Made by a program: the position numbers and the translations under genes | From: Blepharisma japonicum | Lineage: Eukaryota > Ciliophora > Heterotrichea > Heterotrichida > Blepharismidae | Assembly: GCA_949751835.1 (NCBI GenBank) | Contig: CATKHK010000023.1 | Span: forward strand, 124,001 to 188,000 | Length of the DNA: 64,000 nt | Reading direction: 5' to 3' | Notes under the pieces: generated by a model | Told to the model about the DNA's origin: nothing | Database searches by the model: none | The model's input: the letters and a program-made list of their open reading frames with translations, nothing else | In this document: positions 6,969-57,963 of the stretch, piece by piece | Numbering within the stretch: position 1 is the first letter of the stretch | Layout: the number at the start of each line of letters is the position of its first letter

Positions 6969-8780
6969 CTAGCAGGATACAAATGACCATCCTGAAATTG
7001 CGTTTCCTTTTTCTTGAATACTCAGATCGCCATATACTTTGATCGGGTCTATATTTTCTTGTTTAATAACTTTTCTATTAGGAGCTGGTGGTCTCAGCTC
7101 TCTATTTAAAACACTGTTCCAATCAATTCCTCTAAAAAATTCGTGGCATTTTATTTCTTCCGAATCTCTTTTAGCACCAAGTCTAGCATTTGGGTCACGA
7201 TGAAGCAACTAAATAGAATTTACCTGTTTAATCAAGTTTTTCGCCTCAAAACTCAAGCTTGAAGGTAGCCTCAGCTTTCCTTTTTGAATGTTTGAAATCA
7301 GTTCTTCTCTGTTCACTGAAAAATAAGGAGGGATTCCTACAAGCATCTCATACAGCAAAACTCCTAATAAATACCAATCTACTGATTTTCCATGTCCTTG
7401 CCTTCTGATAACTTCTGGTGCTAGATATGCAAGAGATCCGCAAAAGCTTTTTGTTGTATAATTATCATGAGCTCCTTCTTTAGACAACCCAAAATCAGTT
7501 AGTAAGGCGTGGCCTTCTTCATCTATAACTACATTGTCTGGCTTTAAGTCTCTAAAAATAATGCCTTTTTTGTGAAGCTCTTCTAACGCCAATATCACTT
7601 CACATAAGTAAATCCTAGCTTTTTCCTCAGGAAATCTTTTTTCTTTTGTAAGCATTGACCCAAGATCGCCTCCTGGACAATAATCTAGAATTAAAAATAA
7701 TTTTTCTGGGGTTTGGAATGCATAGTTTAGTGATACAATGAAAGGATGCTTGATGTAGCTCATAACATTTCTTTCAGTCAAAGCATATTTTATTAAATTT
7801 TGGGCCATAATCCTGTCTTTCCTCAAAACTTTCATAGCATAAAGTATTTGTGTAGCTGTTTTTCTAACTAAGTAAACTTCTCCAAAACTGCCTTTTCCGA
7901 GTTCTTGGAGGAGCTCGAAATCAAAGGGACTTACTCGTTCAGGTGCTTGAGGTTCATCAGCTGTAGACATATATAATATACTAACTCTTTGTGTTTCGAT
8001 TCGAGATCCAGATGATGAGGATGATGCTTGAGAACCAGACTTATTGATATATTTTTGAAAAATTTTGTCGGTTTCCTCTGATCCTGACATCTCAGCTGCT
8101 GTTTTTTCTAGATTATTTTCAATGAATATGCTTGGCTTCTTAGATAACAGCCAAATAATAAGTCCATTATGGGAGTTTTGTGCAGCTAAATGCAAAGGTG
8201 TGTTTCCATCATTATCTGTCACATCTATTTCTGCTCCTGATCTCACCAGTAGTTGAGCTAATTGCAAATGCCCATTCATGCATGCGATATGAAGCGCGGT
8301 TCGTCCTTTGGAGTTTTTAGCATCAATATCGGCCTTTTCTCCATAGTCCAGCAAGGTCTCACAAACTTTTAGGAACCCTTCTTGTGCGGCAACATGTAAT
8401 GGAGTGTTGTTATTATTTCCTTTGAAGTTTACATCGGCAACTGCGTCGCCGTAAAATGATTTTTGTAATAACTCTCTACATAGTTCTGCCTTGTTTTGCT
8501 GAGCTGCTTGTCAAAGAGCCTCATTCATCGAGTTAGAATGGGAGAGTGGAATAACTGAGGCAGGCTGAATATTTCGTCTTGGAATTTTTTGGACTAGAAT
8601 CGACTCGTTACCTTCACTTATGGAACCGAAGAAAGAGTCCTCAAATTCTGAGTCAAAAGTCCTGGATATGCTGGTCAGAGGATTGCTGGTGGATTTAGTA
8701 TCTTCTTCGGTTAGGCTTTGGTTGGATTTGGAACTATCTTTCTTTAATAAAGCTAAAAAGAGGCTTTTTATTTCTTTCAT
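6969..8780 (-). CDS. Ankyrin-repeat AGC-type protein kinase
   Basis: A 598-residue fusion. Residues 1-85 are Ser-rich and disordered; about 88-245 form ankyrin repeats (NNTPLHVAAQEG, GRTALHIACMNG, GNTPLHLAAQN); the kinase domain starts near 285 with GKGSFG (295-300), then AMKVL, FRDLKPDN, TDFGLSKEG and an AGC-type activation segment TKSFCGSLAYLAPEV. After the kinase comes an AGC tail ending ISGWSFVSC, which resembles the hydrophobic motif. UGA at 8511-8513 is Trp. A 15-nt intron GTAAATTCTATTTAG at 7209-7223 joins NLIKQ to LLHRDPNARLGA. Both are required for an intact kinase. Ankyrin repeats may localise or inhibit it. Confidence 0.93.
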
Positions 8781-12160: not shown

Positions 12161-15100
12161 TTAATTAAAATATTTTTTTGTTATTCCTTTGACCATTATT
12201 TTAGGAGATAATGATATTGAGTATGCTTCTAATTGACCTTGCTTGGAAGGAATTTGATACTGATTTATTCCAGATTCAAGTGGGATGGCTGATAAAACGT
12301 CATTGCTGTATTTTGCCGTCCATTTCCCAGTCAATAAAGTCATATGCGGGCATTTATTCGCTATTTTTATGTGTGGGTTAAATTTATCAGCTGAAGCACA
12401 TATTATATGCCCTGGAACATATACTATATGTGTAAAAACAAATTCTATCTCTTTATTTTCTACGAATTCTTTATATTCCGCTGACTTCGCTAGCTGACTA
12501 TTCCCGCCTAAGAAAAGAGTCGTTATATGCAAGTCACCAACAATTTTCCAAACTTCTGAAAAACGTTCTGGATCAATTCCTAGGAGAGCAGCATTTTGGA
12601 TATCTTGCAAATCATTTACAATGTCCTCACGCTCATAAACGTCAGCAAATTCTCTTAAGCAAGAAATCACCATTGGAACTAATAAAGGCCTAAACCATGT
12701 ATCAGCATCAATTCCAATATAAATTGGGAGCTTATAGTTTTTAGGCTCTGGTCTGCCCTTTTTATGACTTTGTTTTATTTCTTCTGCACTCTTAACACTT
12801 TCTTCTTTGACTCTAATAATTTCATCTTTTCTTCTTATAGGCTCTTTCGTTTCTTCTTCAAACCTTGAGTTTCCTTTCTTCCTAAAGTCAAAAAGTTTTG
12901 CCACTTCTGAAGTAATTTTAGGAACTGGGTCTATTTTTGGTAACCTATCAGCATATTGATCAATTAATTCTACTAAATCCCATATGATATTTTCATTTGG
13001 TAATCCTTCAGGTCTGAAAGATGTCAAAGTTTTTGCTACGACAAATCTCATATTTTCATCCAATTCAAAGGCATTTTCTTCAGTAAATGGCAGTCTCATA
13101 ATATAATGGAATCCATCATTTAAATAATCATCGAACCTAACATTTCTATACATGTTATACATCATTAAAACCACTGCAGCTTTTTTTGAAAGACTACCAG
13201 TTAATGTTTCATGATCGATTCTATTTCTTACCCTGACTAGGCATTGTATTAAAAATGATAAAGAGAGCTCATATGTAAAAGTTAGGTCTCTTTTTTCATC
13301 ATTTATTACAAATGGAGTGCTGCATTCAGGAACAAGAGCAATTACTCGAATTTGGGTTTTTTTAGGTGCATTTTTATTAATATCAGCAAAGGTTTTTGGA
13401 AGAGAGTTAGGAGGATGGTTTTTGTCTAGAAATATGACATGGCATTTGGACTTTGTTTCCATTTCTTTTGCTATTTCTTTGCCGAATTTATTTCTTGCAG
13501 TTTTATTTGTTTTTTCAAAAGCGTTATCTTTATCAAAATTTTTTGAACTTTCCATGTGCTCTTGCATGCATTCTGCTCTTATTTTGTCTGATGATATAAC
13601 AGAAAAAGTAACCCCTTCATTTTTTTCTACAGCAGATTTGAATGATTTTATTATAAATGATTTCCCCATCGCTGGGATACCCATGGGAACAATTATAAAA
13701 ATTTTATTGGATTCATCATCAATGGATAAAGTAGATTCTACTGACTTTGCCTCTTCTGGGGCTTTATTTTTAAGCGAATCAATTTTCATTTCTAAAGCTA
13801 AAATAAACTGAGCTAGATCAATATCAAACCCTTCTAACACAAAATCTCTTTGTTTTTCTTCAATAAAAAGACGTGCAGTTGCGATTTTACTTTTAAGAGA
13901 TTCCAACTTTTTATGAGGATCACCTTTTAAAAACCCTGCCATACCATCAGGCATTTCTTTGTTTTTCTCTCTTTGGCATTCTGTAATAATTTCTTCAGAT
14001 TTTTGGAATCCATCATCAGTAGTCCTATAGAAAGCAAAAAGGGTATTGCTGGGGATAGGATCTTCAACTGGAGTAAATCCTAGAGGAAAGCAAAATGTTA
14101 AACCCTCTTTTATTGTCATTCTCTTGTTTCATGTTTTCTCAATTTTGGTGGGTTTTAAAGCTTCGCATATTGCATCCTTTTCTGATTTATCCAGTACAAA
14201 AGGTGGAGTAACAATATTAACGATAAGGGGATTTAGATCTGCAATAAATTGGTCAGTATTAATTTCCTCGTCACGGATTTCAGGATTTTTGCCAGCATTA
14301 ACTCTATCAATTATCATATCAAGAAAATCAATATATCCTTCTTTGAATTTTTTTCCTGATGATTTTTGTTTTTCAACAAAAGCAAAAGCTACTTCAGCGA
14401 TTTTAAAATAATAATCTAGAGGTTTCGGAAGCTCAATTTCTCTCGCCAAATCTTGAGTTTCGTTTATAAATTTATGTAAGCTGGATTGTGCGGATACTTT
14501 TCTCTTCTCTGAAACCATATTTTTTATTTTTTCTCTCAGCTTTCTGAAGATTCTGTATTCAAGAGTTTTCATTTTTGAAGCAGATAGGGCAATTTGGCTT
14601 AAAATTGCTTGCGAAAGTTCTTCTTCTGTAAAATTGCTGGGCTGATTGCCAAAAATTGTAGAATTTGCAGCATGCAATACTGAACTATCAGGAGTTTGGT
14701 TTTTCAGCAGATAAATAACACTCCCTTCTCCTTCATCTATTAAAGCTTCTGATGAGATTTTATTATATAAGTTGCCTAAATTTCTATATAATTCATCTAG
14801 TGTCCTCATATTTCCAATGTATTCTACTTTTACTCGATTCAGATGATATTTTTCGAACAATGAAAATGCTTTTAATGGTGACATAAAAGAGTATGGAGAA
14901 TTATTGTCGACATAGGCAAAAAATAATATGGTAGTTTCATTGTATTTTACCAAATGCTGATATTCTTTATTGCCTACGTATTCACCTACAAAGGTAAATC
15001 CATCTAAATCATTCTTTAAATCTTCTATTAGATCTCTGCTTAAAGTGCTAATATGCTTAAACCACTCAACTCCAATTAGCTTTGCAAAATTATATCTTTC

Positions 15101-15775
15101 TAGATTTAATTTATCGAAATCTTCTTGACTTCTTGCAGCTATGCTGACATTTTTTGATGAAATTATCCAGGCGTCAATCGGTCTAGCATATGATACCTGT
15201 GCATTTTCTCCATTTGCTTTATTTGTTTTATATACTTCAACTGATGCTCCTTCTCTTATAATAGCCTCTTCAGCATCATAAAAGATAATTTTCCTTAATA
15301 GCTCTCTTTGGGAATCTTGACTATTATATCTTATTGGAAAATTCCCAGCAAAGCTTCCAAGCGTGTTAAGATTTTTTGTGTTGTTTTGGAAAGTAAACTC
15401 TGGATATAAATCAAAAAACTTTTGCATGCCTCTTCTTACGAATCAAGAATTTGAGTATGGATAATTCATTATCATTGATTGCCTATCAGCCTCACTTTCA
15501 TCTTTTTGAGATTGCAGCTGTATTAGAATAGAGTTTCCTCTTCTAATGTTATTTCTCAAGAATAATTCTTTTGTGTAGAGTGCATCTTCTTCGAAGCTGC
15601 GGCCATGCAAATTAAATGATATGTCGAAAAGCTTGAAATTTGTTTCAAACGGGATTGAGCTTTCAACTGCCTTTGCTAGCTCATTAGGCTTACTTTTTGC
15701 ACACCATTCAAGCATTTCAGCTGGGCCAAAAATTGTGTTTGGTTCAATGAAAACTTGCTTTTGCTTTTTACCCAT
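12161..15775 (-). CDS. TRL1: tRNA ligase, Trl1/RNL type (ligase-kinase-cyclic phosphodiesterase)
   Basis: A 1204-residue, intronless protein once UGA at 15443-15445 and 14129-14131 are read as Trp. Order: N-terminal adenylyltransferase/ligase with motif I TNKANGENAQ (KANG 186-189); a P-loop kinase module with GIPAMGKS (699-706); and a C-terminal 2H cyclic phosphodiesterase with HITTLF (1083) and HMTLL (1144). This is the fungal/plant healing-and-sealing ligase, which opens 2',3'-cyclic phosphates, phosphorylates the 5' end with NTP and seals tRNA halves (and HAC1-type mRNA in yeast). All three active-site signatures are present. Its ATG is 41 bp from the stop of the upstream TPLATE-like gene. 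Confidence 0.9.
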
Positions 15776-48971: not shown

Positions 48972-50741
48972 TTAAAGTAGCTTCTTTGGAGAATCTGGAG
49001 GAATCCGCGGAGTCGGGGTTAGTTCAATTTCAAATAAATTCTTAATTCTTGATTCTAAATTTCTTGTTCGGTATGTAATCAAAAAGTTTGGTGGGGGTGT
49101 CTTTTTGTGAACTAGTATATTTTTCTTAGGGGAAATTGTTTCATATGATCTTCCAGCTCGAGGAGTTTTTGGGCTATTTAATAGATAATAATTGTTCTTA
49201 TTTGGAGAAAACCCAAGGGATTTATTTAAACCTGATTTCTCATCACTTGCTGTACCTTTTGTTTCGGTTCTCAATCGTGAAAGGCTTGTTAATTTCGGAA
49301 TTGTTTGCGGTTTTTTAGCCAAGAAAGAGAGCTTTCTATTGATCGGAGAAAGTTTTGGACGTGGACTTGACTCTGAAGTGTTAAATTCGAAGGTGCTTTT
49401 CATCTCCTCAATTTCTTTAAGCCTAACTTCTCTCTTCAGAAATCTCTGCGAATCATAGTTTTGTTTATCTTTTAAATAGTTCCATGTCTCTTGGTGGGGA
49501 AATTTGCTTGTAAAATCTTCTTTAGATATGTAAATTAATTCTCCTTCTATTGAGCAGCAATGACAAGAATGAACCCTGTATTCAAGTCCTTCTATGATTT
49601 CTTCGCCTCCTAACATCTCATTTTCTGCTTTTATGACAAGCTGTAAATTAGTTTTTCTGTTGATTTTTCTCATATTTCCAAGTTTGAGCATTGTTTGAGC
49701 ATGAGCTTCAGGAGATAATGGCTCGTTATAAGCACTTAAGTCAAGAATTCCTAGATATTTCTTGACTCCTTTTGTAATTTTAAATTCGCCTTTTTTAACG
49801 AAGTATACATTCGCGACTGGATCTCCTTCGTTGTAAACTGGCTGATTTCAATTATACTTGGCAGTTTTAAATGACTCACAAAGCCGAGCGACAGCTACTT
49901 TGCTTCATTTTGAGAAAATGGTGAGTTTCCTTAATATATCAATTTTCTCATCAAATTGTGTGTCTGTAATTTTTGATAGGATTTGTCTAAAAGTTTTCTT
50001 TGGGAGATAAGCAAGGACTGTTGGCTTAGTTGTAATTACTGTCATTGCTCTTGGCTTAGAGCTGATAATTCCGAGTTCTCCAAATGCACTTCCAGCAATC
50101 AATCTGAATTTTTCTTTTAAATTTGACATTGTAATTTTTATAGTTTCTAAATTAGGATATTCAGTTAACAATCCAGTAAGGATTGATTGTTCTTCCTCGA
50201 GCTGGCCTTCAAAGCTATGAAAAATCAGTTTTTCATTTGACACTTTACTTGAGCTTCCAGGAATGTCGTTTATTGGCTTATGAATGCCTTTATCCAGTAC
50301 TTGCTCTTTTATTTGGTCTATATTAATATTGAACTCTACCTTAGGGTCATCATTAAACTCATCAGGATTAAAATCAATATCTGAATCTGATTTGTCAATT
50401 TTCTCTGATCAATCTGTTTTACAGTTTCTTATGCGGGTTTTTCTTTTGGGAGGTTTTTTATAAGGGTAATAAATCGCTACTTCCCCTCTTAAAATAATGA
50501 AAAAGTTATTATTTCTATCTCCCAGCTTAACAATCGCTTCTCCCTCTGAAAAATTTTTTATTGCAAGTGATTTACAGCAACTTCTGTGCATGTCAGTAGA
50601 GTTTGTTATTTCGTTTATTGTTTGAAAAAAACTTATGTTTGACGTTAACCTCATTAAATGCTCTATATCTGCTTCGCTTCTGAGACGTTGAATTTTTTGT
50701 AAGATTTCTATTGTTTTGTTGCAGTCATATTCGTGATTCAT
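48972..50741 (-). CDS. Cyclic nucleotide-binding domain protein
   Basis: 589 residues, with UGA=Trp at 50409-50411, 49905-49907 and elsewhere. A first CNB domain begins with FSEGEAIVKLGDRNNNFFII and, after an insert of about 95 residues, carries the phosphate-binding cassette FGELGIISSKPRAMT, where Glu and Arg contact cAMP/cGMP. A second CNB (VYNEGDPVANVYFVKKGEF) is degenerate, lacking a clear cassette. The C-terminal 170 residues are basic and Ser/Pro-rich. Not a kinase or channel: no catalytic or TM part. It could be an orphan cNMP sensor, perhaps ciliary (CNBD2-like). Confidence 0.88.
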
Positions 50742-50859: not shown

Positions 50860-53070
50860 CTAAAAATTGAGATATTGCTTAGTATCGAAAAACATCTTGT
50901 ATAGAGGACTCCGCGACTCAGAACAGTCGCAGTGAATAGTTCGATTCAAATTCATATAGGCTATCCTTAATATGTGAATCATGTTTTCAACTCTTGTGCT
51001 ATAAGCAACATTATTTTGCTGATTTAATGGATCGACAACTATAAGCTTGGGAAATTGTTCCTATATTACTTTTACTGTTGGATATGGGAATGGATTTTGT
51101 ACTGGGTTTTCAGGATCATAAGAAAATATTGGGGTTATATATGTAAACTCAACAGAATAAAATTTCAAAATTTGATAAAAAATTTCTCCTAAATTTTTTT
51201 TTGTGTTAGAATTTCTCTTCAACCACTTTTCTTTTTGAGATTGAAAATAGCTAGTAACCATCAAAAACAATGAATAACTGCTCAATCCTCCGTTATATGG
51301 CTCTTTGCACCCACATAGGTAGAATAGATGCTTCAATATCAAGAAAATGGGTTTAATATTTCCATATGCTGCTTGCACCCGGTTGACGAATGAGCAGCAC
51401 TGGACGCCTGTATGCTTTATATCTTGAACTGTGATGTCCATATTTATGGTTTTTCCTCTTGACTCACATTTAAGCTTTATTATTGGTACAACGGCAAGAG
51501 ATATTAATTGAGTACTCTTCACATATGGTTGCCTTTGAAGAACCTGATCCAAAAGTCTCAAAATTTCTTTTTTCTCACCTTCAACATTTGTCACAACCAT
51601 ATCAATATCACTTGAAGGCAAATGCATCTTTGTAACATAGCTTCCATACAATTCTAATTTGGCTCCTTGAAAAGTTTTTTCAACAAGAATGCTGATTTTT
51701 GTTGAAATATCATTGAAGATTGGTTCTAGACTTAACTGTCAGCTTTCTCACTCCTGCATGAAATTCATGATATCATCTTGCAGAAGACTCACTATTTCTG
51801 CTTTTGGGGTATGATGAATATTTTTTATCCTAAGGAATGCGACCTTCCTTTTATTCTTTTTTCCGTTTTTATCTGGGCATTTAGCTTCTTCTTCAAGCTT
51901 ATCTCTTAGCATTTCATTTTCCTGATTCATTATTTTTAATGAATGCTTTAAATTCAAAATTTGTTCTTTTGTACTTTCTAATTCATCTTGTAAATTAATG
52001 ACAGATTGTTCGCAATCTTTTTTGCATTTTTCAGCTTCTTCAATGATTTCATTTTCTTTGTCAAATAAAGATTGCTGGAGTTGTTCTTTTTTATTTTTCA
52101 ATTTTTCAATTTTTCCAGATTTTTTTTCTAAATCTGCCTGTAGCTTCTTAACTGTGCTTTCTAATTCGACGTTTTTTACATACAGCTCTTCAATCCTTTT
52201 CACATTAATTTCACTTTTTTCTATACTTTCATCATAGCAAAATCTGCATATTTCTGCAGCCCTTGCATTGCAATTGCTGCATTGAATTTCTTTATCTTCA
52301 GGCATAGACTCATAACCCCCACTAGATTCTGAATGTGGATCTTCATTTTCGCTGATATCTGATTTCGTAATAGGTGTCCCTGGATTTGGCGTAAACAAAG
52401 TTTTCAAATTCTCTGCTGCTTCCTCATATGGACTTTTCCCATTCAAATTTTTCAAATCCGTCTTTGCATTCCATTTCAATAGCAGTTCCACACATTGCTC
52501 ATGGCCAAGTCTTACAGCAAGATGTAAAGGCGTATCTTTTTCTTTATTTTGTGTATTAAAAAACGCAGCACTGTCTAATAAAGCCCTCATAGAATTAACA
52601 TATCCTCTTTCTGCACATTTGTGTAGAGCAGTGTTTTCATTGATGTCTTTTGAATCTACTTGTGCTTTGCAGTTCAAAAGAAGCTCAACTACGTCGACAT
52701 TGTCTCCGTAGTCACTTTCACAAACATACATCAGAGGGGTTCGGTTTTCGTTGTCTTTGTCATCTACTGGAGCGCCATACCTGATCAGCAAATCTACCAA
52801 TTGGATTTGTCCCATTTTAGCAGCATGCATAAGTAATGATACTCCTGAGTCTTTATAGCTCGGATTTGCAGAGGAATTTAAAAGAGCTTCTACACATTGA
52901 AGGTGATCGGATGTGGATTGAGACTTGCATACAGCTAAATATAAGGAGTGATTAAGGATATTCTTATCATTTTTGTGTGGCGCAGAGAGAAGCTCACAAA
53001 GTCCTTCGTAATCCCCTTCACTAGCTGCTCGTGAAAGTGAAGTATTGTGGCTTGTGTCTGGATTATCCAT
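50860..53070 (-). CDS. Ankyrin - coiled-coil - TRF4-type nucleotidyltransferase fusion
   Basis: 731 residues when UGA at 51748-51750 and 51739-51741 are Trp and the 15-nt intron GTAAAAGTAATATAG (51061-51075) is removed. Order: ankyrin repeats (about 1-230; SLLMHAAKMGQ, NRTPLMYVCES, DTPLHLAVRLGH), a four-Cys motif CSNCNARAAEICRFC, a coiled coil (about 290-410), then a non-canonical poly(A) polymerase: FMQEWESW, YGSYVTKMHLPSSDIDMVV with the triad D488, D490, D545, and PYNGGLSSYSLFLMV. The exon after the intron restores LIVVDPLNQQNNVAYSTR, conserved in TRF4/Cid1 enzymes. Splitting into two genes requires treating UGA as stop. RNA tailing is predicted. Confidence 0.9.
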
Positions 53071-55221: not shown

Positions 55222-57963
55222 ATGGGCAGTCAGCTGACCAAGAACTATGACGTGGATAGAGAGCCACTCAGCTTTGGAGGTATCGGTGGACCTTGGAAAA
55301 TTTATGGCGCGACTCGTAAAGACCGTGAAAAATCTCCTGTTTCAATCTTTATGTTCGATAAGAAAACAATAGATAGGAAACCGGACAAAAATGACACAAT
55401 TAATCGACTAAAACTTGAAGTGACTAATCTCGTCCGCCTCAGGCATCCCTGCATTCTTCAAGTTGTAGAGCCTTTACTAGAAGATAAAAACACCTTGGCA
55501 TTTATTACAGAACCAGTGCAGTATTGCTTAGGCGACTTATTAAGGAGGCCACACATTTTAAGTACCATCTTATGTGATACTGAAGTCAGATTAGGGCTAC
55601 TTGATTTAATTCAAGCAATTGCTTTTATCCACACTGAAGCTCGGATGATTCATTTTGCAATTTGCCCAGATAATATTTATATCACCATCAAAGGAAAGTG
55701 GAAATTAGCTGGTTTTGGGTTTGCTTCTTCAATAACAGCAGAGCAGGTAGCTAATTTGGATCCTTCGCTTGATATTGTGCTTTCAGGGAAAACTATGAGG
55801 TACCAAGCTGAGCTTGAGAAATTGGCACCTATGCTACATTTTACAGCACCAGAAGTTGTCAGTACAAAATCATCTGGGCAGCAGGCAGATATATTTTCAT
55901 TTGGTTGCACGATCTTTGCTATTTATAAAGCATTATCTAACACATCTTCTGATATTTTTCTGTTATCAATTGAAGAGTATTCAGTGGGTGGGCATAGAAA
56001 CTCATGTTTAACAGTCCAAAGAATGGGCCCTACACTTGTGAACTGTGTTCCTGACTTTTTAGGAGAAAATGTATTAAGAATGGTTAATGTGAATCCTCAA
56101 GACCGTTCTAATTTGCATGAACTTTCAGTTTCCAAAGCTTTTCAAACACCTTTTGTAAAAGCAATTTACTATCTTGAACACCTACAAGAAAAACAAGAGT
56201 CTCAAAAGCTCCAATTTTTCAAAGGACTAACTCAAATTATCGACAAATTCGATAGAGTCATTATGAATAAGAGGCTCCTTCCCGCTTTAGTTCAAAACAT
56301 GCAGCATCCTAGTATGACCCCATTTATTCTTCCAAACATTTTGAGCATAATAAAAACTTGTGAGATTTCTAAAGAATTATTCCAATCAAGCATATGGCCA
56401 AGTATAGCAAAACTGTCATCTGGAAAAGAAATGCCAGCTCAGAGTTTTTATTTGATTTTAAGCGAAATTGATGTGCTTATGAATTATACTGATGATGAAC
56501 AATGGAAAAAATTTTTGATGCCGCTTGCTTTTAAAGGATATGATTGTGGAGTCGCTCAAATTCAAGAGACTTTGATGGTTAAAACTCCAGAAATGGTCAA
56601 AAAAATACGAGACAATATGTATGTAAGAGTTCAGGTATTGCCAAGATTTCTGGGTGGAATTCTAAATGCAAAAAGTCCAAGCGTGAGAGAAGCAGGACTT
56701 CATTCTCTGGCTCAGATTTATTCGATTTTTGATAGATCAACTATGGTCGAGTCTATTCTACCATCATTAGAAAAATTCAAAAAACTTGATGTCACAGGGA
56801 ATATGATTATGCACTTATTAGATGTCTATGAAGGAATTTCAAAATCACTTGGCCATAAAACTACAGCTATTAATATTATTCCTGCCCTTGTCCCATTATT
56901 AGTTGAAGGAGAAGTAAATAAATCTCAGTTCGAAAGACTGAGCAATAGTTTAATGGCAATGATAAATATGATTAAAGATGCAAGATCTGGAGAATTGCAA
57001 GAAACAGTCGAAGATGCAAAAATTGAACTGAATCCAGATGCAGATAAGCCGCCTGAGGAACCTAATGAAGTTTTTAATGATATCTTTGAAAGTGGAGGCG
57101 CGCCGATATTTGAAGCGCCGATTGATGGAGGAGCTAAAAAACAAGAGGTCCTAAACAGCGGAGGAAGCAATACAAAAAACCCAGCACAAACCTCATATGA
57201 GATGCCAGGCAGAATGAAATTTGAAGCAGATAATACAATGAATTTTAATCCACAGCCAAATCTACAAATCAATCAGCCTAATCCTATGAGATTTGAGCAA
57301 CAGATAAATCCAATGAATGCTGGAAATAGATATGAACCACAACAAGGCCTTTCTACTCTTTCAAAGCCAATGAGACTAGATTCTCAAACAAATTCGATGA
57401 GATTTGAACCACAAATAAATCCTATGGGAGCACCAACTTCTATGAAATTTGAGGATCCAAGTATGGGTAACTCTGGTAATATGTTTGGGAAAATGACTTT
57501 GAAAACTCAAGATAACCAAAATGAAGATGATTTTTGGAAAACAAACGGTATGAACTTAAATAAAAGTCAGGGGCCAAAACCTATTCAAGCCTTGAGACCT
57601 CCATCTCCACTGCTTTCTAAGCAAACACCTCAGCCTAATCAAATTCCACAGCTAAGTCAAAATTCTTTTCAGCCGAATTACCCACCTGTCTCTCAAAACT
57701 TTAAATCTTCATTCACAGAGCAACAATTTCAGCCTCCTCAGCGTGAAAAATCTCCTTTACAATTTCAGGCTCCACAGGAAAATTTTTCATTTAAAGCTAC
57801 AGGACCTCAAAATACTCCATTCAGCTTGCCACCACCTTCTCAGCCTCAAGGAGGTGTAAAACGAAATAATAATCCATTTGAGAAGCCAAAAGTTAAAATA
57901 GATACCGAAGACTTTTTTAATGAATTCCTACAAGGGAAAAAAGACCCATTTGATGGTCTTTAG
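55222..57963 (+). CDS. SCY1-like pseudokinase (SCYL2-like), clathrin traffic
   Basis: 913 residues, uninterrupted, TAG stop. The N-terminal kinase-like domain (about 20-310) has LVRLRHPCILQVVEPLLEDK and lacks catalytic residues: HRD is H-F-A in MIHFAICPDNIYI and DFG is G-F-G in KLAGFGFASS, so it is a pseudokinase. A HEAT-like helical region follows (about 320-600), then a long Asn/Gln/Pro-rich tail with repeated MRFEPQINPM-type segments and NNPFEKP, DPF motifs that bind EH and AP2-appendage domains. SCYL2 (CVAK104) works with clathrin at TGN/endosomes. MGSQ at the start is a possible myristoylation site. Confidence 0.9.
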   Translation: MGSQLTKNYDVDREPLSFGGIGGPWKIYGATRKDREKSPVSIFMFDKKTIDRKPDKNDTINRLKLEVTNLVRLRHPCILQVVEPLLEDKNTLAFITEPVQYCLGDLLRRPHILSTILCDTEVRLGLLDLIQAIAFIHTEARMIHFAICPDNIYITIKGKWKLAGFGFASSITAEQVANLDPSLDIVLSGKTMRYQAELEKLAPMLHFTAPEVVSTKSSGQQADIFSFGCTIFAIYKALSNTSSDIFLLSIEEYSVGGHRNSCLTVQRMGPTLVNCVPDFLGENVLRMVNVNPQDRSNLHELSVSKAFQTPFVKAIYYLEHLQEKQESQKLQFFKGLTQIIDKFDRVIMNKRLLPALVQNMQHPSMTPFILPNILSIIKTCEISKELFQSSIWPSIAKLSSGKEMPAQSFYLILSEIDVLMNYTDDEQWKKFLMPLAFKGYDCGVAQIQETLMVKTPEMVKKIRDNMYVRVQVLPRFLGGILNAKSPSVREAGLHSLAQIYSIFDRSTMVESILPSLEKFKKLDVTGNMIMHLLDVYEGISKSLGHKTTAINIIPALVPLLVEGEVNKSQFERLSNSLMAMINMIKDARSGELQETVEDAKIELNPDADKPPEEPNEVFNDIFESGGAPIFEAPIDGGAKKQEVLNSGGSNTKNPAQTSYEMPGRMKFEADNTMNFNPQPNLQINQPNPMRFEQQINPMNAGNRYEPQQGLSTLSKPMRLDSQTNSMRFEPQINPMGAPTSMKFEDPSMGNSGNMFGKMTLKTQDNQNEDDFWKTNGMNLNKSQGPKPIQALRPPSPLLSKQTPQPNQIPQLSQNSFQPNYPPVSQNFKSSFTEQQFQPPQREKSPLQFQAPQENFSFKATGPQNTPFSLPPPSQPQGGVKRNNNPFEKPKVKIDTEDFFNEFLQGKKDPFDGL

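Follow-up and report, generated by a model that had tools for sequence, protein, structure and literature searches.

Introduction

Terminal nucleotidyltransferases (TENTs) usually reach RNA via separate partners or RNA-binding domains, and the zinc part of yeast Trf4, the polymerase core of TRAMP, is a separate protein (Air2). For the mammalian enzymes, the accessory parts that are named include zinc fingers, RRM and KA-1, with no ankyrins among them in the available sections of the review (PMC6232586). In ciliates, Tetrahymena Rdn1 and Rdn2, which run at about 65 kDa, co-purify with the RdRP Rdr1 (PMC6562869), Tetrahymena RdRP complexes are described as containing nucleotidyltransferases, with in vitro work pointing to a uridylation role, and the nucleotidyltransferase Cid2 of Paramecium is required for siRNA accumulation (PMC4937312). 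Ankyrins are not mentioned for Rdn1, Rdn2 or Cid2 in the available portions of these two papers, and the comparison of these enzymes with the gene reported here is by description only.

Here we describe a gene of the heterotrich Blepharisma japonicum in which ankyrin repeats precede a polymerase core of this kind. The gene lies in a stretch of 64,000 nucleotides (the window) taken from an assembly of 45.2 Mb, 224 contigs and 67% A+T, and is referred to as copy C23 where it has to be told apart from its relatives. A preliminary description of this DNA had stated that an ankyrin-coiled-coil version of these enzymes was not known. In line with this, open-access papers retrieved with ankyrin plus TENT or ciliate terms describe no ankyrin-bearing TENT in their accessible portions, and the word ankyrin is absent from two TENT reviews, PMC6232586 among them; the architecture may already be present in database entries. 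One paper (PMC12699882) mentions both ankyrin and a transferase, which are unrelated to each other there.

Gene structure and the four-gene family

A search of the genome with the window protein returned three further genes with an identical order of parts, located on C40 (80% identity), C79 and C17 (about 30%). The family thus consists of two pairs, C23/C40 and C79/C17, with about 30% identity between pairs, and both the ankyrins and the polymerase palm exceed the Pfam cut-offs in all four members. The features of the window gene are as follows.

50860..53070, minus strand: whole gene from ATG to stop, 731 residues once one 15-nt intron is removed
52393..52911, minus strand: ankyrin repeats, residues 54-226, by Pfam, predicted model, PDB phmmer and Foldseek
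52237..52281, minus strand: CxxC-x7-CxxC, residues 264-278, possible zinc ligands, with identical spacing in all four paralogues
51886..52236, minus strand: predicted coiled coil, residues 279-395, by the heptad test and a long helix in the predicted model
51076..51792, minus strand: TRF4/Cid1-type nucleotidyltransferase core, exon-1 part, residues 427-665
51739..51750, minus strand: W441 and W444, both encoded by TGA, at the supposed gene break; for W444, two paralogues have TGG
51607..51609, minus strand: catalytic Asp D488, invariant in four family members
51601..51603, minus strand: catalytic Asp D490, invariant in four family members
51436..51438, minus strand: catalytic Asp D545, invariant in four family members
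51061..51075, minus strand: putative 15-nt intron GTAAAAGTAATATAG, at the equivalent place in all four paralogues
50863..51060, minus strand: exon 2, residues 666-731, completing the PAP-associated domain and carrying the DPLNQQNNV nucleotide-recognition motif, by the spliced frame and PAP_assoc

When read with the standard code, the locus appears as two minus-strand open frames in the same phase, 53070-51748 and 51651-51061. When TGA is read as Trp, both frames join into one which starts with the ATG at 53070 and runs for 669 codons to the TAG at 51061-51063. This TAG is the last codon of the 15-mer GTAAAAGTAATATAG, and once the 15-mer is removed the frame stays open to the TAG at 50860-50862. 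We ascribe the apparent frame breaks to two in-frame TGA codons for Trp and to the terminal TAG of a 15-nt intron, which is likewise in frame. In Blepharisma stoltei, UGA is described as specifying Trp and introns as being predominantly 15 and 16 bp (PMC9942806, available sections). Together with the 67% A+T, these two traits are the ones by which the DNA itself points to a Blepharisma-like source. In our alignment, TGA occurs in some family member in six columns, and another member has TGG in five of the six; judged from these codon comparisons, TGA decodes as Trp in the window gene. For the intron, GTA stands exactly 12 nt before TAG for 26 of the 1635 TAGs in the window, and a GTA...TAG 15-mer is found near the gene end at all four homologous sites, which are non-independent since the four genes are related. 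C79 and C17 have a second GTA...TAG 15-mer in common.

The standard-code frame, which stops at the TGA at 51748-51750, would fit two adjacent genes, with an ankyrin-coiled-coil protein ending at this codon and a separate polymerase downstream. This arrangement is extremely improbable, given the TGG found in a paralogue in five of the six TGA columns. In addition, Trf4 homology runs through the supposed break, with the profile match beginning at about residue 433, before the TGA codons of W441 and W444; C79 and C17 are open through the ankyrin/polymerase joint and have no TGA at that place; and in both the coil and the palm, which flank the joint, non-synonymous changes are much less frequent than synonymous ones. 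Within the joint segment, C79/C17 has a ratio of 0.185, and C23/C40 gives none because dS is saturated. The single gene proposed in the preliminary description at 50860-53070 coincides exactly with the spliced TGA=Trp frame, and the two transcripts meeting between 51651 and 51750, which it had named as the outcome that would speak against it, are unlikely in view of where the Trf4 match starts.

Composition of the predicted protein

The ankyrin repeats are tandem and exceed the Pfam cut-off (Ank_2, E=1.9e-29, 102.5 bits against a cut-off of 27.3), with the best stretch at residues 124-207. The predicted model has pLDDT values of 90-96 across residues 61-220, and by Foldseek its ankyrin part matches gankyrin and ankyrins.

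Between the ankyrins and the core, CxxC-x7-CxxC is present in all four family members, and the four cysteines may bind zinc; the region has pLDDT below 50 in the predicted model. A single helix covers residues 269-395 of this model, with blocks of pLDDT of only 44-82. In the heptad test with 300 shuffles, the mean score of the window copy was reached by none and its maximum by 11. For the pair C79/C17, 18 and 26 of 300 shuffles attained the mean and 58 and 65 the maximum, and a coiled coil is only weakly indicated by sequence in this pair.

In the core, MTPAP-like_central (PF22600) was matched at residues 432-550 with E=4.9e-14 (53 bits against a cut-off of 27), and NTP_transf_2 also exceeds its Pfam cut-off. 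The palm is of the Pol-beta type with GS and DxD...D, as expected of a TENT, and the predicted model likewise has the TENT fold. The four family members have retained the Asp triad together with the GS and GLSSY motifs. PAP_assoc (PF03828) in the window copy is below cut-off (E=0.021, 15.5 bits against 22.6), and with the intron removed it aligns over positions 1-60 of 60; at least 58 of the 60 positions are aligned in each of the four spliced tails, of which only that of C17 is above cut-off (23.2 against 22.6). Around DPLNQQNNV the pLDDT is 41-69, and the full-length model has a pTM of 0.44, at which the relative placement of the parts is not fixed by the model. The parts listed in the preliminary description, namely ankyrins, the CxxC-x7-CxxC motif, a coiled coil and an intact triad of D488, D490 and D545, are all borne out for the window copy by these comparisons.

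Yeast Trf4 (3nyb) was the best match in the profile search of PDB (E=3.1e-25), followed by TUT7 and TUT4, and the likeness is one of the kind of core. The full-length model matches Trf4 over 334 columns with a TM of 0.74 normalised by Trf4; the 3nyb chain, unlike the window gene, has no ankyrins.

Nucleotide preference

The residue that selects uracil in other enzymes of this type was used to compare possible substrates. The His that does so in the active core of TUT4 aligns with Asn 681 (spliced numbering) of DPLNQQNNV, and Trf4 also has Asn there. At the position of Cid1 H336, Asn is found in C23, C40 and C17 and Ser in C79 (C40, C79 and C17 by eye), so that none of the four members has His. 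Replacement of this His in Cid1 by Ala or Asn is reported to bring a gain of poly(A) polymerase activity (PMC4357723, available text), and PDB entry 4fhx is, by its title, a Cid1 H336N structure with ATP. ATP preference is thus the better guess from the aligned residues. This residue does not by itself decide in favour of ATP, because the ten other PF22600 genes, out of 12, in which the motif could be placed by eye also have no His there; three of them have Arg.

The enzyme may instead add U, or use CTP, as a uridylyl- or CTP-adding transferase. The single-sequence search of PDB placed TUT4 (5.2e-15) just ahead of Trf4 (6.9e-15), TUT7 and TUT4 come behind Trf4 by profile, the fold matches to URT1, Trf4, TUT7, GLD-2 and Cid1 differ by no more than one Z unit (23.8 to 22.8), and both nucleotidyltransferases and uridylation are described for the Tetrahymena RdRP complexes (PMC4937312, available sections). 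With His absent at the Cid1 H336 position from the whole family, we regard U or CTP addition as possible but somewhat unlikely, and adenylation as the preferred reading. An assignment of the core to a single TENT subfamily by fold was dropped, since the best rows of the five proteins are within one Z unit.

The three genes with Arg at the H336 place are TENT loci L026, L027 and L028 (DPFETTRN, DPFETRRN and DPFITVRN, by eye). TUT4, which has two cores in the alignment, also has Arg there in the first, which we take to be the non-catalytic one.

Selection and common history of the parts

The dN/dS over the whole length was 0.081 for C23/C40 (730 codons) and 0.099 for C79/C17 (675 codons). For C23/C40, the ratio was 0.18 for the N-terminus, 0.035 for the ankyrins, 0.11 for the linker, 0.08 for the Cys motif and 0.20 for the coil in the front half, and 0.095 for the palm, 0.03 for the central part and 0.15 for the tail in the polymerase part; dS was saturated in segments 406-425 and 426-460, which gave no ratio. 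For C79/C17, it was 0.21 for the N-terminus, 0.14 for the ankyrins, 0.19 and 0.085 for the next segments, 0.66 for a 12-codon linker, 0.049 for the palm and 0.04 for the central part, while the tail was saturated and one segment was too short; the borders of Cys motif, coil and linker are inexact in this pair, as the Cys motifs of one pair do not line up with those of the other in the family alignment. By these ratios, selection is purifying over most of the gene length.

The polymerase core might have been retained for binding only, as a scaffold in which catalysis is dispensable, and non-catalytic TENT-like domains are indeed described in TUT4 and TUT7 (PMC6232586, available sections). Such a role is improbable here, where the three Asp, GS and GLSSY are intact in all four members and the palm has the low ratios given above for both pairs; a catalytically active core is the reading kept below.

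Since three sister genes in the genome share the layout, the fusion is regarded as genuine and kept by selection, and on this comparison the ankyrin-polymerase fusion is not an artefact. When the ankyrin segment alone was used as the query, the four polymerase-linked loci were the top four of 125 matches (150 of 224 candidates scored), with 404.4, 360.3, 107.5 and 95 bits in comparison to 63.2 for the fifth match. The ankyrin and polymerase parts therefore appear to share one history, most simply explained by a fused ancestor that predates the split of the two pairs.

PF22600 had 16 matches in the genome, 15 of them above cut-off, and four are the ankyrin genes. Ankyrins at E<=0.01 were found in none of the other 12 loci, with one open frame scanned for each, so that an exon for ankyrins lying in a different frame would escape detection. 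In the tree of all 16 genes the four ankyrin genes form one clade (99/99), which was recovered again in a tree of 13 from which the three longest branches were left out. Three shorter genes, TRF4-like by eye and without ankyrins, fall outside this clade, the deeper forks being left open. Two other PF22600 genes have C2H2-like stretches, one by Pfam (E=0.0017, under cut-off) and one by eye. Outside the genome, no relative was confirmed in two scans of viral_contigs, in one of which both patterns were ankyrin-derived, making it a poor test of fusion, and one scan of genome_contigs yielded just one hit, to the ankyrin part only, on a bacterial MAG contig.

Proposed function

Taken together, the window gene is probably a member of a four-gene terminal nucleotidyltransferase family in this heterotrich, with an RNA-tailing core tethered by ankyrins to a partner. 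The C-terminal core would use the metal-dependent mechanism known from Trf4 and Cid1 to extend the 3' ends of RNA, most likely with A. Ankyrin repeats usually bind other proteins, and those of this enzyme would bind a protein partner that brings it to its substrate. The long coiled coil of the window copy and of its 80% twin on C40 may serve as a dimer maker or spacer. The enzyme would operate much as Trf4 does in TRAMP or Rdn in the RdRP complex of Tetrahymena, except that the polymerase would carry its own docking part. Direction of tailing to a specific complex and a bearing on small-RNA-guided genome rearrangement, both suggested in the preliminary description, are conjectural. If this holds, the built-in ankyrin arm would be another way to aim RNA tailing, and the four paralogues offer a natural comparison, as one pair has a long coiled coil and the other a short or weak one.

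A small-RNA role is possible, as a guess by analogy, because of the precedents of Rdn1/Rdn2 and Cid2 and the presence of three RdRP genes in the genome, on C6, C125 and C106. None of the three is located on C23, C40, C79 or C17, so that no clustering of RdRP with the ankyrin genes was seen at the level of contigs. Blepharisma is described as making development-specific small RNAs (PMC9942806, available sections). A part in tailing mRNA or in RNA surveillance of the kind performed by Trf4 is no less likely than the small-RNA role. A more far-reaching and rather doubtful proposal is that these genes form a ciliate class of tailing enzymes fused to docking arms, with each pair of paralogues directed to a different complex, one of which would be the small-RNA machinery that acts specifically in development to guide DNA elimination. 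Blepharisma stands far from the model ciliates, and the identity of the partner would show whether such a tailing enzyme serves a small-RNA pathway.

Neighbouring genes and contig ends

The gene adjoining the ankyrin-TENT gene (48972-50741, minus) encodes a cyclic-nucleotide-binding protein, relatives of which form a cluster of seven on C47, with others on C23 and C40 some way from the ankyrin genes. Their presence on both C23 and C40 raises the possibility that these two stretches arose by block duplication.

For Blepharisma, CCCTAACA has been published as the telomere unit (PMC9942806, available sections). At six contig ends checked, no two consecutive CCCTAACA units were found; the end of contig C79 (L022) finishes in GGGTGTTAG, which fits CCCTAACA but is short.

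Elsewhere in the window, a second ankyrin fusion was observed at 7209-8780 (minus), in which ankyrin repeats are followed by a protein kinase domain (Pfam). The 1204-residue protein encoded at 12161-15775 (minus) has no Pfam family above cut-off and no PDB relative by sequence (best E 0.32); by eye, it contains a KANGEN ligase-like motif, a P-loop and two HxT motifs, an order that to us resembles a tripartite tRNA ligase. The gene at 55222-57963 (plus) encodes a kinase-like protein (Pkinase E=3.1e-17), perhaps of the SCYL1 type.
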